Assembly: GCF_000236685.1 (NCBI RefSeq)
Contig: NC_016633.1
Span: 248,001 to 312,000, forward strand
Origin: Sphaerochaeta pleomorpha str. Grapes
GTDB taxonomy: Bacteria; Spirochaetota; Spirochaetia; Sphaerochaetales; Sphaerochaetaceae
DNA length: 64,000 nt
Direction of reading: 5' to 3'
In this document: positions 14,938-19,880 of the stretch, piece after piece
Position numbering within the stretch: the first letter of the stretch is position 1
How the letters are laid out: each line of letters starts with the position of its first letter
The notes under the pieces: generated by a model
The model's input: the letters and a program-made list of their open reading frames with translations, nothing else
The model's database searches: none
What the model was told of the DNA's origin: nothing
Made by a program: the position numbers and the translations under genes

Positions 14938-14966
14938 TTGACTACTTAACATGCATATAGTAAAAC
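14938..14966 (+). promoter_or_regulatory. Candidate promoter giving a leaderless mutasome transcript
   Basis: TTGACT (14938-14943), a 17-nt spacer and TAAAAC (14961-14966) lie directly ahead of the ATG at 14973. The expected initiation point falls at or within a few bases of that ATG, and no Shine-Dalgarno sequence is visible. The operon would therefore begin with a leaderless gene. No SOS box of a type I recognise overlaps it. Confidence 0.45.
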
Positions 14967-14972
14967 ATAGAC

Positions 14973-15764
14973 ATGGCAACCATATTGATCGGAACATCAG
15001 GATATAGCTACACAGAATGGGTCGGTCCCGTTTATCCAACAGGGACCAAGGCCAGTGAATACCTAGGCCTGTATGCCTCTCTGTTCGAGACAGTTGAATT
15101 GAATTTCAGCTATTACCGCATGCCAGAGGCCGCACAGTTGCAGAGTATGCACGAGCAGGCCCCCTCCTTGGTTTTTTCCATCAAGGCCCATGAAACGCTT
15201 ACCCATAGCATAGATCCCGCTTCATGGAAAAGTGAGGCGACGTTGTTCCGTTCTGCCTTGGAGCCGCTTCTTTCTTCAGATTCCCTCAAAGCCGTGCTGC
15301 TCCAATTTCCCTATTCCTTTCATTACGAACCTGATCAGCGAAGGTATCTCGATGCGCTCATCCGGTTTTTGCAGGGGCTTCCCCTGGCGGTTGAATTCCG
15401 TAACGCCCAGTGGTACAACAACCGTACCCTCGATGCCTTGCGAGCCTTGCAGGTAGCGTTTGTTTCCCTCGACCTTCCCCAGGTCAAGGGAAATCCTCCT
15501 ATTATGGATGTTGCTACCGCCCCTCTGGCCTATCTGCGGCTACACGGGAGAAACGGGGAGACCTGGTGGGGTTCCGATGCAGCTTCGCGGTACGACTATC
15601 TCTATAGCGAACGGGAACTGGCTTCCCTTGCCCAGCGGATAAGGGCTCTTGCGACAGGTACTTCTACCGTAGTGGTCTATTTCAATAATCATCGCAAAGG
15701 CCAGGCTGTTATAAACGCCCAGAGGCTGAGAATCCTTTTGGGTTCGGGGGAAAAACCCGTATGA
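14973..15764 (+). CDS. DUF72 (YecE-like) protein
   Basis: 263 residues, the usual length of the family. It begins ILIGTSGYSYTEWVGPVYP, the hallmark of DUF72, continues with FETVELNFSYYRMP and FSIKAHETLTH, and near the end has YLRLHGRNG followed by YVYFNNH-type residues (VVVYFNNHRKGQAVINA). DUF72 proteins are TIM-barrel-like and functionally uncharacterised, though they often occur near DNA-repair or Fe-S genes. The stop overlaps the start of the ImuB-like gene (ATGA), so it is the first cistron of a translationally coupled mutasome operon. This linkage suggests, but does not prove, a repair-related role. Confidence 0.9.
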   Translation: MATILIGTSGYSYTEWVGPVYPTGTKASEYLGLYASLFETVELNFSYYRMPEAAQLQSMHEQAPSLVFSIKAHETLTHSIDPASWKSEATLFRSALEPLLSSDSLKAVLLQFPYSFHYEPDQRRYLDALIRFLQGLPLAVEFRNAQWYNNRTLDALRALQVAFVSLDLPQVKGNPPIMDVATAPLAYLRLHGRNGETWWGSDAASRYDYLYSERELASLAQRIRALATGTSTVVVYFNNHRKGQAVINAQRLRILLGSGEKPV

Positions 15765-16936
15765 GTAGTACCCATGCGACCATAATCCATATCAATGTCA
15801 CTGATTTTGCCGCCGCAGTGGCAATTGCAAAGCAGCCATCCCTTAGTGATACAGCCTTTGCCATTGCTAGGGAGGGGTCTGCCAGGCGTGTCATCATTAC
15901 CCCTTCCCCAAGGGCATTCAAAGAAGGTATCCGCAGTGGGATGCCTGTTGCCATTGCCCAGCGGATGTTGCCTTCTTTGCAATTGATCCCTCCCGATGCT
16001 GCTTCCAACGCAAAGGCAGATGCAGCGATCAATGAGATTGCCCTCAGGTATTCCCCCACCATCCAATGTGACAGCGGGGGTCATTTATATCTGGATGTGG
16101 AGGGGACCACCCGGTTATTCGGGCCCTCTGTCGACTGTGCGGTACGCATCCGCAATGAGGTGCATGAAAGGTTGTGCCTTGAACCTGCGGTTGCCGTGGC
16201 GGCCAACAAGCTGGTGGCAAAGATTGGGACGAGGGCAATTCGTCCCAGTGGTATTTTGCAGATCAGGGACGGGGATGAGGCTGATTTCCTTTTTAGGCAG
16301 GATATTTCCCTGCTTCCCGGGGTGGGGCCTTCTATCAGGAAATTGCTGCTTGTGGCAGGAATCCGGGAAATAGGGCAGATAGCTTCCCTTGATGATATGC
16401 AGGCCATTGCTTTCTTGGGCAAACGTGGTCTCGCTTTGCGTGATGCCTCACGGGGGGTGGATTTCTCCCCCCTCGATTCCAAGGCTTTGGGGCAGCGCAA
16501 GATTTTTCGCAGGGTCGATTTCACGGAGCCTGTCTGTGAGCTTGACGCCTTCCGTGCAGCGGTTATCACGGCCTGTGAAGATGCTGGGCTGGAAATGCGT
16601 ATCCAGCGATGGGGCTGTTCGGCAGTGCAAATCTCCCTGGCCTGGAGTGACGGATTTTCCACTGAGGCAATGCAAAGGACGAAAGGACAATGGGTGCTTG
16701 ACCAAGAACTTATCCCTGCCAGCTGGAAGGCCGCCAATCAGGCTATGAACCGTAGGGTACGTATCGTAGCGTTTACCCTTTCGCTTAGGGACCTTTCACC
16801 GGCTTTGAGGGAACCCGATTTGTTTGAACCGGAAGGCCCGACAAAAGAAGAGAGGCTGCAGTCTGCTGTCGATGAGACCCGCTCCCGGTTTGGCCCTGCC
16901 ATACTCACCCATGCGGCGGCGGTGTTCCATGTCTAG
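15761..16936 (+). CDS. imuB: ImuB-like Y-family DNA polymerase homologue lacking catalytic residues
   Basis: 391 residues with the Y-family palm, fingers, thumb (LLPGVGPSIRKLLLVAGI, a helix-hairpin-helix) and little-finger regions. The first acidic motif HIDMDAF of DinB reads HINVTDF here (Asp to Asn12), and the second, S-L-D-E-A-F-L-D-V, reads S-G-G-H-L-Y-L-D-V (Asp and Glu replaced by Gly107 and His108). All three metal-binding carboxylates are therefore missing, as in ImuB of the ImuA-ImuB-DnaE2 system, where it is a scaffold rather than a polymerase. EPDLF (351-355) is a candidate beta-clamp motif. It is shorter than typical ImuB, with no long C-terminal RecA-NT tail. It overlaps DUF72 upstream and the DnaE2 gene downstream. 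Confidence 0.85.
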   Translation: MSSTHATIIHINVTDFAAAVAIAKQPSLSDTAFAIAREGSARRVIITPSPRAFKEGIRSGMPVAIAQRMLPSLQLIPPDAASNAKADAAINEIALRYSPTIQCDSGGHLYLDVEGTTRLFGPSVDCAVRIRNEVHERLCLEPAVAVAANKLVAKIGTRAIRPSGILQIRDGDEADFLFRQDISLLPGVGPSIRKLLLVAGIREIGQIASLDDMQAIAFLGKRGLALRDASRGVDFSPLDSKALGQRKIFRRVDFTEPVCELDAFRAAVITACEDAGLEMRIQRWGCSAVQISLAWSDGFSTEAMQRTKGQWVLDQELIPASWKAANQAMNRRVRIVAFTLSLRDLSPALREPDLFEPEGPTKEERLQSAVDETRSRFGPAILTHAAAVFHV

Positions 16937-19880
16937 CCGACTTGGTATCCGTTCCTCCTATTCCCTGCTCTGGGGAACGGCCCCGATACAAAAATTGTTT
17001 GAGACGTTACAGAGCCAAGGTTGCAAATCTGTAGCCATAACAGACCGGGATAACCTCTATGGCTTCCCTGCGTGCAGGGAAGCGGCAAAAGAGGCTGGTA
17101 TCAGGTTGATCTGTGGCTGTGAACTCCTCTGTAGCCAGGGTTCGGTGTTTGCCTTTGTCCAGGATAGCGTTGGTTTTTCCCGTCTGTGTGAGCTTTTGAC
17201 CGAGCGTAACAAGGATAGGTCGTTCGATTACCTTCCTTCTTTGGCCAAGGATTCAGCGGGCCTTGTCCTTGCTTCCTTTTCTTCTGACATCCTTACGTTC
17301 CTCAAAGGTACTGTTGTGAATCTCTATGCCGCGATTTCTCCCCGTTGCTTATCTTCCATTCCCACTGCCCGATCACTGCACCTCCCCTTGATTGCCCTCG
17401 ATGATGCTACCTTCCTACAAGAAGAGGACAGGCTGATACATTCGGTATTGCGTGCCATTGCCACAGGTAAGACTGTCGGGACGCTTGCTGCAGAGGACCA
17501 GGAGGGAAAGGGTGGGGTGCTGTTGGATGAAAAAGCCTATAGAAAGGCCTTTTCGTCATGGCCTGAAGCGGTATCTGGTACTGAAAAAGTTGCCTCTTTG
17601 TGCACTGTGGACCCTTTTTCAGGGGAACTGATTTTTCCAGACTATCCGACTCCAGGTTCCACGGCCCAGGCTGAGTTGAGAAAAAGGGTGTTGAGGGGAG
17701 CGGAACAGCGCTACGGTGAACTATCCGATGGAATCCTGGACCGCATCGAGTACGAGCTGGATATTATCAATCGGAAGGGCTTTGCCTCGTATTTTTTGGT
17801 AATGCATGACATTGTGGCGATGAGTAGCAGAACCTGTGGGCGTGGTTCGGCGGCAGCTTCCATTGTTTCCTACTCGCTTTATATCACCAATGTGGATCCC
17901 ATTGCCTACAAGCTCTATTTTGAGCGTTTTTTATCCATGGCCCGGATCGATCCCCCGGATATCGATGTTGATTTCGCCTGGGATGAACGCGATGGGGTTT
18001 TCCAACAGGTATTCAAGCGCTTTGGCTTTGATCATTGTGCAAGGGTTGCCAACCATAATAGTTTCAGGCTCCGTTCGGCAGTGAGGGAAACCGCCCGTTC
18101 CTATGGGATTCCCGACTCACAGATTACCCAGATGGAACACCGGTTGTTCCTTACCGGGCTGAAGGATGTCTCCGATCCGCTGTGGCATACCATCTGTTCG
18201 ATTTCCAGACAGATGGTAGGGCTCCCCAAGGAATTGTCCATGCACTGCGGGGGGTTGGTCATAACGCCAAAAAAGGTATCCTGCTATGCCCCCATAGGGC
18301 TTTCCAGTGTGGGGTATCCCTTGCTCTCCTGGGAAAAGGAAGGTGCCGAGGCAGCGGGTTTCGTTAAGATCGATTTATTGGGCAATCGATCACTTGCCGT
18401 TATCCGCGATGCCTTGGCCAATCTGCAAGAAGAGGGGATTACCATCGATGAAACTACGTGGCATCCTACAATGGATAGGGCAACCGTTGCAGCTCTGGCG
18501 CGAGGCGATTCTTTAGGGGTGTTCTATATCGAATCCCCGGCGATGAGGCAATTGCAGAAGAAAACCGGTAAGGGTGACTTCGACCATATTGTCATCCATT
18601 CCTCGATTATCAGACCGGCAGCAAACAAATATATCAATGAATATGTCGAGCGTTTAAAAGGTAAGCCCTGGAAGGCGCTGCATCCCCGACTTGCCTACAT
18701 CCTGGATGAGACGTATGGGATTCTCTGTTACCAGGAGGATGTCTCCAAGACTGCCGTGGCGTTGGCAAGTTTCAATGAAACCGATGCCGATGCCCTACGT
18801 AAGGTCATTGCAAAAAAGGCAGGGGGAGCCAAGCTGGCACGCTATGAACGCCAATTCTTCGAGGGGTGCAAAGCCAATGGTATCGAGGAACAGACGGTAA
18901 AGGAAGTCTGGGCCATGATGCTTTCCTTCGATGGCTATTCGTTTTGCAAACCCCATTCTGCTTCCTATGCAATGGTCTCCTTCCAGTCTGCCTATCTTCG
19001 GGTGCATCATCCTTCTGCCTTTATGGCTGCGGTCTTGTCCAACCAGGGAGGATATTACCGTCCCCATGCCTATATCAGCGAAGCTAGAAGGATGGGCCTT
19101 TCCCTTGTTGGACCCGATATCAACCAAAGCAGGGTTGCCTATTTTGCGAGGGAAAAAACACTCATAATCGGGCTTATGGCCATCGCTAACCTAAGCAGGA
19201 CTGCAATGCAGGCCATCATTGATGAGCGGGATAGAGGCGGCAGGTTCTCTTCTCTCGAAGAAGTCTCCCCTAGGTTGTCCCTTAGCCGTGATGATTTCGT
19301 TGCCCTTGCAGCAGCAGGTGCCTTCGATTCCCTCGCCCCCTCTTTGCCTCGAAGCGAACAGCTGAAACAGTTGCTGATAACCAGTCGTAAAAGCGAGCCT
19401 TTCGGACAAGGCGACCTGTTTGCAAAAAAAAGAATGCCCATAGTCTCCAAGACGAAACAGATGCAGGGTAGGATTACACGGACAGAGGACGAGCTGCATC
19501 GGGAGTATGAGGCTTTGGGATTCCTCACTTCCTATCACCCTCTGGTGCTCTGGTCGAAGTTTTTGGCACCGGTCAAGCGCATATTGGCCTGTGACCTGAG
19601 CCAGCATGTGAACTACCATGTCAATCTGATAGGTTGGCAGGTTACCCAAAAGGAAGTCATGACCAAAGATGGGAAAAGTATGGGGTTTGTCTCTTTCGAG
19701 GATGAGACTGCCCTGTATGAAGCAGTCCTTTTTCCCGATATGTTTACCCGCTATTATCCGTTGCTCTGTACCCAATGGCCTTTAGAGGTGTTTGGTCTGG
19801 TACAGGAAGACCATGGGGCATTGTGTGTGCAGGTCATCTCGCTCAAACAGGTCGGGCGTAGCAAGGAAGTGAAAACATAA
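16929..19880 (+). CDS. dnaE2: Error-prone DNA polymerase III alpha subunit, DnaE2/ImuC-like
   Basis: 983 residues from the ATG at 16929, which lies inside the last codons of imuB; a longer reading from 16824 would be buried in imuB. The PHP domain is degenerate: the usual HxH motif is replaced by RLGIRSSYSLL. The polymerase core is intact: GRGSAAASIVSYSLYITNVDP, the PDIDVDF metal motif (near 343-349), KIDLLGNRSL, and YQEDVSKTAVALASF. The fingers region FCKPHSASYAMVSFQSAYLR is also kept. A C-terminal OB fold (LIGWQVTQKEVMTKDGK) follows; the length is that of DnaE2 rather than replicative DnaE. With ImuB it would carry out translesion synthesis and damage-induced mutagenesis. Residues for PHP proofreading are missing, consistent with error-prone synthesis. 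Confidence 0.9.
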   Translation: MSSRLGIRSSYSLLWGTAPIQKLFETLQSQGCKSVAITDRDNLYGFPACREAAKEAGIRLICGCELLCSQGSVFAFVQDSVGFSRLCELLTERNKDRSFDYLPSLAKDSAGLVLASFSSDILTFLKGTVVNLYAAISPRCLSSIPTARSLHLPLIALDDATFLQEEDRLIHSVLRAIATGKTVGTLAAEDQEGKGGVLLDEKAYRKAFSSWPEAVSGTEKVASLCTVDPFSGELIFPDYPTPGSTAQAELRKRVLRGAEQRYGELSDGILDRIEYELDIINRKGFASYFLVMHDIVAMSSRTCGRGSAAASIVSYSLYITNVDPIAYKLYFERFLSMARIDPPDIDVDFAWDERDGVFQQVFKRFGFDHCARVANHNSFRLRSAVRETARSYGIPDSQITQMEHRLFLTGLKDVSDPLWHTICSISRQMVGLPKELSMHCGGLVITPKKVSCYAPIGLSSVGYPLLSWEKEGAEAAGFVKIDLLGNRSLAVIRDALANLQEEGITIDETTWHPTMDRATVAALARGDSLGVFYIESPAMRQLQKKTGKGDFDHIVIHSSIIRPAANKYINEYVERLKGKPWKALHPRLAYILDETYGILCYQEDVSKTAVALASFNETDADALRKVIAKKAGGAKLARYERQFFEGCKANGIEEQTVKEVWAMMLSFDGYSFCKPHSASYAMVSFQSAYLRVHHPSAFMAAVLSNQGGYYRPHAYISEARRMGLSLVGPDINQSRVAYFAREKTLIIGLMAIANLSRTAMQAIIDERDRGGRFSSLEEVSPRLSLSRDDFVALAAAGAFDSLAPSLPRSEQLKQLLITSRKSEPFGQGDLFAKKRMPIVSKTKQMQGRITRTEDELHREYEALGFLTSYHPLVLWSKFLAPVKRILACDLSQHVNYHVNLIGWQVTQKEVMTKDGKSMGFVSFEDETALYEAVLFPDMFTRYYPLLCTQWPLEVFGLVQEDHGALCVQVISLKQVGRSKEVKT

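Follow-up and report, generated by a model that had tools for sequence, protein, structure and literature searches.

The genes at positions 14973-19880 of the window (the whole 64,000-nucleotide stretch of Sphaerochaeta pleomorpha DNA that was analysed, from a genome held on a single contig of 3.59 Mb) in our assessment probably form a translesion-synthesis operon of the DnaE2B-iPolY-RecA type, to which a protein of the DUF72 family belongs as a fixed extra member. The fixed place of DUF72 in several error-prone operons provides a testable DNA-damage-tolerance hypothesis for this widespread but functionally unassigned family, and current mutasome models may accordingly lack a part.

The operon comprises three co-directional, overlapping genes on the + strand, in the order DUF72, iPolY (a catalytically inactive Y-family polymerase) and DnaE2. 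The first (14973..15764) encodes a DUF72 TIM-barrel protein of 263 amino acids, which scores 210 bits against PF01904, where the curated cut-off is 25.3, and its end is joined by an ATGA overlap at 15761-15764 to the gene for the 391-residue iPolY (15761..16936; PF00817 (IMS), 94 bits). The third gene (16929..19880) encodes DnaE2, an error-prone C-family polymerase of 983 amino acids (DNA_pol3_alpha, 197 bits), and its likeliest start is the ATG at 16929, so that its first eight bases are shared with the Y-family gene; the TTG at 16824, which had been called mechanically, is an unlikely start. The three overlapping genes described in the sequence-only reading are thus upheld by the gene calls and by both junctions.

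Linkage of DUF72 to error-prone polymerases

Among 139 genomes of the order iPolY occurs in 33, and the DUF72 gene lies directly upstream of it in 32 of these, an IS21-like insertion separating the two in the 33rd, and outside these DUF72 of the mutasome type was found in only two order genomes, as an orphan (G082) and as a fragment at a contig end (G096). In the Spirochaetota sample DUF72 accompanies every one of the 26 iPolY loci read, as against none of four active PolY loci, and in Desulfobacterota it is present at 28 of 29 iPolY loci, usually in the order lexA-DUF72-iPolY-DnaE2, a few of the contigs from these and other named genomes stopping before DnaE2. Among the named genomes the trio also occurs on contigs of Spirochaetota and on one Myxococcota contig, a Desulfosarcina plasmid carries lexA-DUF72-iPolY-DnaE, and a search with the DUF72 profile recovered DUF72-iPolY-DnaE2 from predicted viral contigs, where an S24 repressor gene in divergent orientation accompanies it in two cases; the iPolY profile gave no matches among the viral contigs, though the DUF72 profile matched there. 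Since the link holds so far outside this genome, recurring across the order, Spirochaetota and Desulfobacterota as well as on the Myxococcota contig, the plasmid and the viral contigs, the proposed linkage stands and an accident of one genome is rejected.

Three individual cases may be recorded alongside this distribution. At one Desulfobacterota locus (L163) lexA directly precedes iPolY with no DUF72 between them, likely a natural loss. A Sphaerochaeta-like DUF72-iPolY-DnaE2 contig filed as Burkholderiaceae (L129) is probably misbinned. Two Treponema-like genomes (G350 and G434; loci L263-L266) each possess two iPolY copies with adjoining DUF72; those copies that were read have a divergent S24 repressor as neighbour, and in each of the two genomes the cassette is covered by one viral-contig match.

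The association has definable limits. Nitrospira has the same iPolY-DnaE2 pair and no DUF72, so that not every such mutasome needs this protein. DUF72 is found in 9 of the 14 control genomes searched, E. coli and B. subtilis included, and adjoined translesion genes at none of nine plasmid or phage control loci, one of which has DnaE2 about 4 kb away; several Spirochaetota DUF72 loci are likewise not beside translesion genes. The translesion link is therefore a property of a DUF72 subfamily. In agreement with this, a single clade (support 93/81, just below the strict mark) unites the linked DUF72 proteins with the G082 orphan and excludes the paralog from the same genome and the plasmid controls. 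The paralog in question (L260:3216-5775) lies two genes from a putative DnaQ-type exonuclease.

Other error-prone systems have DUF72 neighbours as well. The gene directly follows umuC in three loci, as umuD-umuC-DUF72 in L276 and G464 and as umuC-DUF72 in G477, and its enrichment near PolB2 has already been published (PMC11791011), the PolB2 mutasome being unlike the present one in its use of a B-family polymerase with iRadA and PPB2. No paper tying DUF72 to DnaE2-iPolY or umuDC operons was found in the literature searched, which is not proof of novelty; as a standing mutasome partner DUF72 appears to be unreported.

The AlphaFold2 model of the DUF72 protein (pLDDT 94) has as its closest solved structure TM1631 (1vpq; Z 33.4, rmsd 1.8, 252 residues aligned), for which an endonuclease IV-like mode of DNA binding has been predicted and N44, K72, Q114, R145 and R191 have been proposed as phosphate-binding or active-site residues (PMC3828134). 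The counterparts N44, K71, Q111, R143 and R189 are present in the window protein, and the putative active site is thus kept. TM1631 and EF0366 (1VPQ, 1VPY/1ZTV) share with it the family, the fold and these residues, but have C or N where the mutasome clade has H240, and neither has a known mutasome link. UV-damage endonuclease and endonuclease IV were also recovered by the fold search (Z 13.8 and 13.5); sugar isomerases and epimerases score equally, and the fold is for this reason no proof of a role on DNA.

An explanation that we consider possible, if doubtful, is that DUF72 works on its own in the damage response, for instance as an endonuclease acting on lesions or as an end cleaner, and shares only its regulation with the mutasome without becoming part of it. 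The presence of UV-damage endonuclease and endonuclease IV in the fold group would accord with such a function, as would the members of the family that stand alone in other contexts, and the links to different polymerase systems fit a common stress response equally well. However, the overlapping genes and the near-perfect co-inheritance with iPolY suggest a tighter dependence, and DUF72 of this type is almost absent where iPolY is absent. It is improbable that DUF72 is a hitchhiker, the cargo of a mobile cassette moving as a block. The plasmid and viral occurrences and the duplicated cassettes of the two Treponema-like genomes are what such transport would produce, but each of 27 comparisons shows DUF72 to be more conserved than both iPolY and the N-terminal half of DnaE2 (mean identity 0.68 for DUF72, 0.57 for iPolY and 0.60 for DnaE2), and in Desulfobacterota the link persists despite drifted spacing. 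To judge from gene layout and alignments, DUF72 is co-transcribable and co-inherited with the polymerase genes and is strongly conserved.

The type of mutasome

The polymerase genes were originally taken to represent a reduced ImuA-ImuB-DnaE2 mutasome with an ImuB-like subunit and no neighbouring ImuA. What survives of this is a mutasome with a dead Y-family scaffold, a live DnaE2 and no ImuA found in the genome; what does not is the ImuB identity, which is rejected on domain content and trees. The genome, whose inventory includes one RecA, one LexA and the second, distant DUF72, yielded no ImuA either near the operon or elsewhere, NF033429 retrieving only RecA, far under the cut-off, and PF00154 only RecA and a weak match taken as RadA; nor did any ImuA exceed the NF033429 cut-off in the 139 order genomes. 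This profile reached its cut-off in no control genome, Caulobacter included, and a very divergent ImuA could consequently be missed. By its sequence features the operon is of the mutasome kind already described as DnaE2B-iPolY-RecA without ImuA (PMC12926913) and is not a damaged ImuA-ImuB-DnaE2 cassette, and since this kind normally has no ImuA, its absence is expected.

The DnaE2 partner, as proposed, is catalytically intact, with all three catalytic aspartates kept (D344, D346 and D482, numbered from 16929), and the genome encodes a separate DnaE1 of normal length (G000:C1:2267145). In the DnaE tree the window protein groups with its Desulfobacterota and Nitrospira counterparts and with two Bacteroidota DnaE2 proteins from PolY-DnaE2 operons; this places it in the DnaE2B clade, for which those two are the only Bacteroidota references, and the DnaE2B-type group separates with support 1.0 from seven ImuB-linked DnaE2 proteins (DnaE2A). 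DnaE2 residues 827-831 (window 19407-19421) form a clamp-type motif, QGDLF, at the position of QISLF in the genome's own DnaE1, and most ImuB-linked DnaE2 rows are without the motif.

The tail of iPolY carries a clamp-binding-type motif, EPDLF (16811..16825; QxxLF in many relatives), followed by a RecA-NT-like motif (16844..16933) in which a helix, predicted at residues 362-377, ends in FG, and then by the end of the protein. Compared by hhalign, it matches the DUF4113 tails of UmuC with a probability of 96% and RecA N-termini, in register, with 50%, twenty column shuffles giving at most 2.2%. The RecA-NT motif is a trait of the DnaE2B-iPolY-RecA type. Because iPolY ends directly after it, there is no ImuB-C domain, and the protein, at 391 amino acids, is shorter than the plasmid ImuB proteins (475-532). 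In the Y-family tree iPolY forms a clade of its own outside the ImuB clade, although the two adjoin at 0.89.

It is in this context very unlikely that the operon represents a genuine ImuB mutasome from which ImuA has disappeared. Such a loss would leave a dead Y-family scaffold adjoining DnaE2, as observed, and would suit the neighbouring positions of iPolY and ImuB in the tree, but the reading is already contradicted by domain content: ImuB-C is missing, the RecA-NT tail stands at the very end, the clade is separate and the partner is DnaE2B-type, with no ImuA over the cut-off across the order. The resemblance to the ImuA-ImuB-DnaE2 systems of Mycobacterium, Caulobacter and Pseudomonas is thus confined to the dead scaffold, the clamp motif and the live DnaE2, the operon differing from them additionally by its DUF72 gene. 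The iPolY tail is homologous to that of UmuC in Pol V (UmuD'2C-RecA), and a few umuC operons end in DUF72, but UmuC is catalytically active and the Pol V system has no DnaE2. The closest likeness is to the DnaE2B-iPolY-RecA or gbDinB2-like group (PMC12926913; PMC6511836), which has a dead Y-family protein with a RecA-NT tail, a DnaE2B-type neighbour, often lexA close by, and neither ImuA nor ImuB-C, although the text of these papers names no DUF72 member; the likeness to G. bemidjiensis DinB2 (gbDinB2, ACH37529.1) is one of the features described for the group.

The replacement of all three metal-binding carboxylates is confirmed by a profile-based alignment with Pol IV chains of known structure, in which D8, D103 and E104 of Pol IV align with N12, G107 and H108, and it extends beyond what had been claimed, being conserved in relatives. 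The N..GH pattern is almost fixed among iPolY relatives of the order; Spirochaetota and Desulfobacterota rows have N/G/H with few single-letter exceptions (for example N/G/N), and the Nitrospira relatives are also dead, by different letters. D/D/E is kept at the same columns in active Pol IV and UmuC rows, and likewise in the second Y-family protein of this genome (L262). The iPolY model shows a predicted Pol IV fold, and the protein is, on these alignments, a Y-family member that keeps this fold and lacks the residues for normal polymerase chemistry. That it still polymerises by means of substitute metal ligands is highly improbable: neither D112 nor D125 varies within the group, but D112 cannot be such a ligand because active Pol IV rows have it besides D/D/E, and the three catalytic columns of the group carry no carboxylate.

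Proposed mechanism and regulation

In the mechanism that we propose for the DnaE2B-iPolY-RecA operon, iPolY would connect RecA with the sliding clamp at the site of a lesion and would position DnaE2, which would perform the error-prone synthesis, RecA standing in for ImuA. This polymerase part is likely, given the motifs and the published models. DUF72, as a protein of the endonuclease IV and UV-damage-endonuclease fold group, may act as a mutasome accessory that binds or processes DNA where it is damaged or where an end is blocked, a role that we infer from linkage, conservation and fold group. A more tentative generalisation, which we put forward as no better than possible, is that DUF72 could be a TIM barrel that binds lesions or processes ends as a general accessory subunit of mutasomes in bacteria and archaea, serving three unrelated error-prone polymerase systems, DnaE2-iPolY, UmuC and PolB2.

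The operon is probably repressed through a palindrome in its promoter, and the operons elsewhere that are led by lexA or flanked by S24 genes make a LexA/S24-type protein the natural candidate for the repressor. A palindrome-like candidate operator, TACTTAAC-N4-ATATAGTA, at 14943..14962 on the + strand, is conserved before DUF72 in aligned upstream regions within the order, and even with one mismatch allowed it has no second occurrence in the 3.59 Mb of the genome. It is not an operator common to lexA or recA, as the near upstream regions of both contain no such site. The Desulfobacterota lexA promoters have no common palindrome but contain repeated TTTACATT-like words. Upstream of lexA in L151-L175, L178 and L191, many Desulfobacterota lexA-DUF72 promoters share TTTACATTGACATTTACATT-like words, which possibly represent a direct-repeat operator rather than a palindrome.
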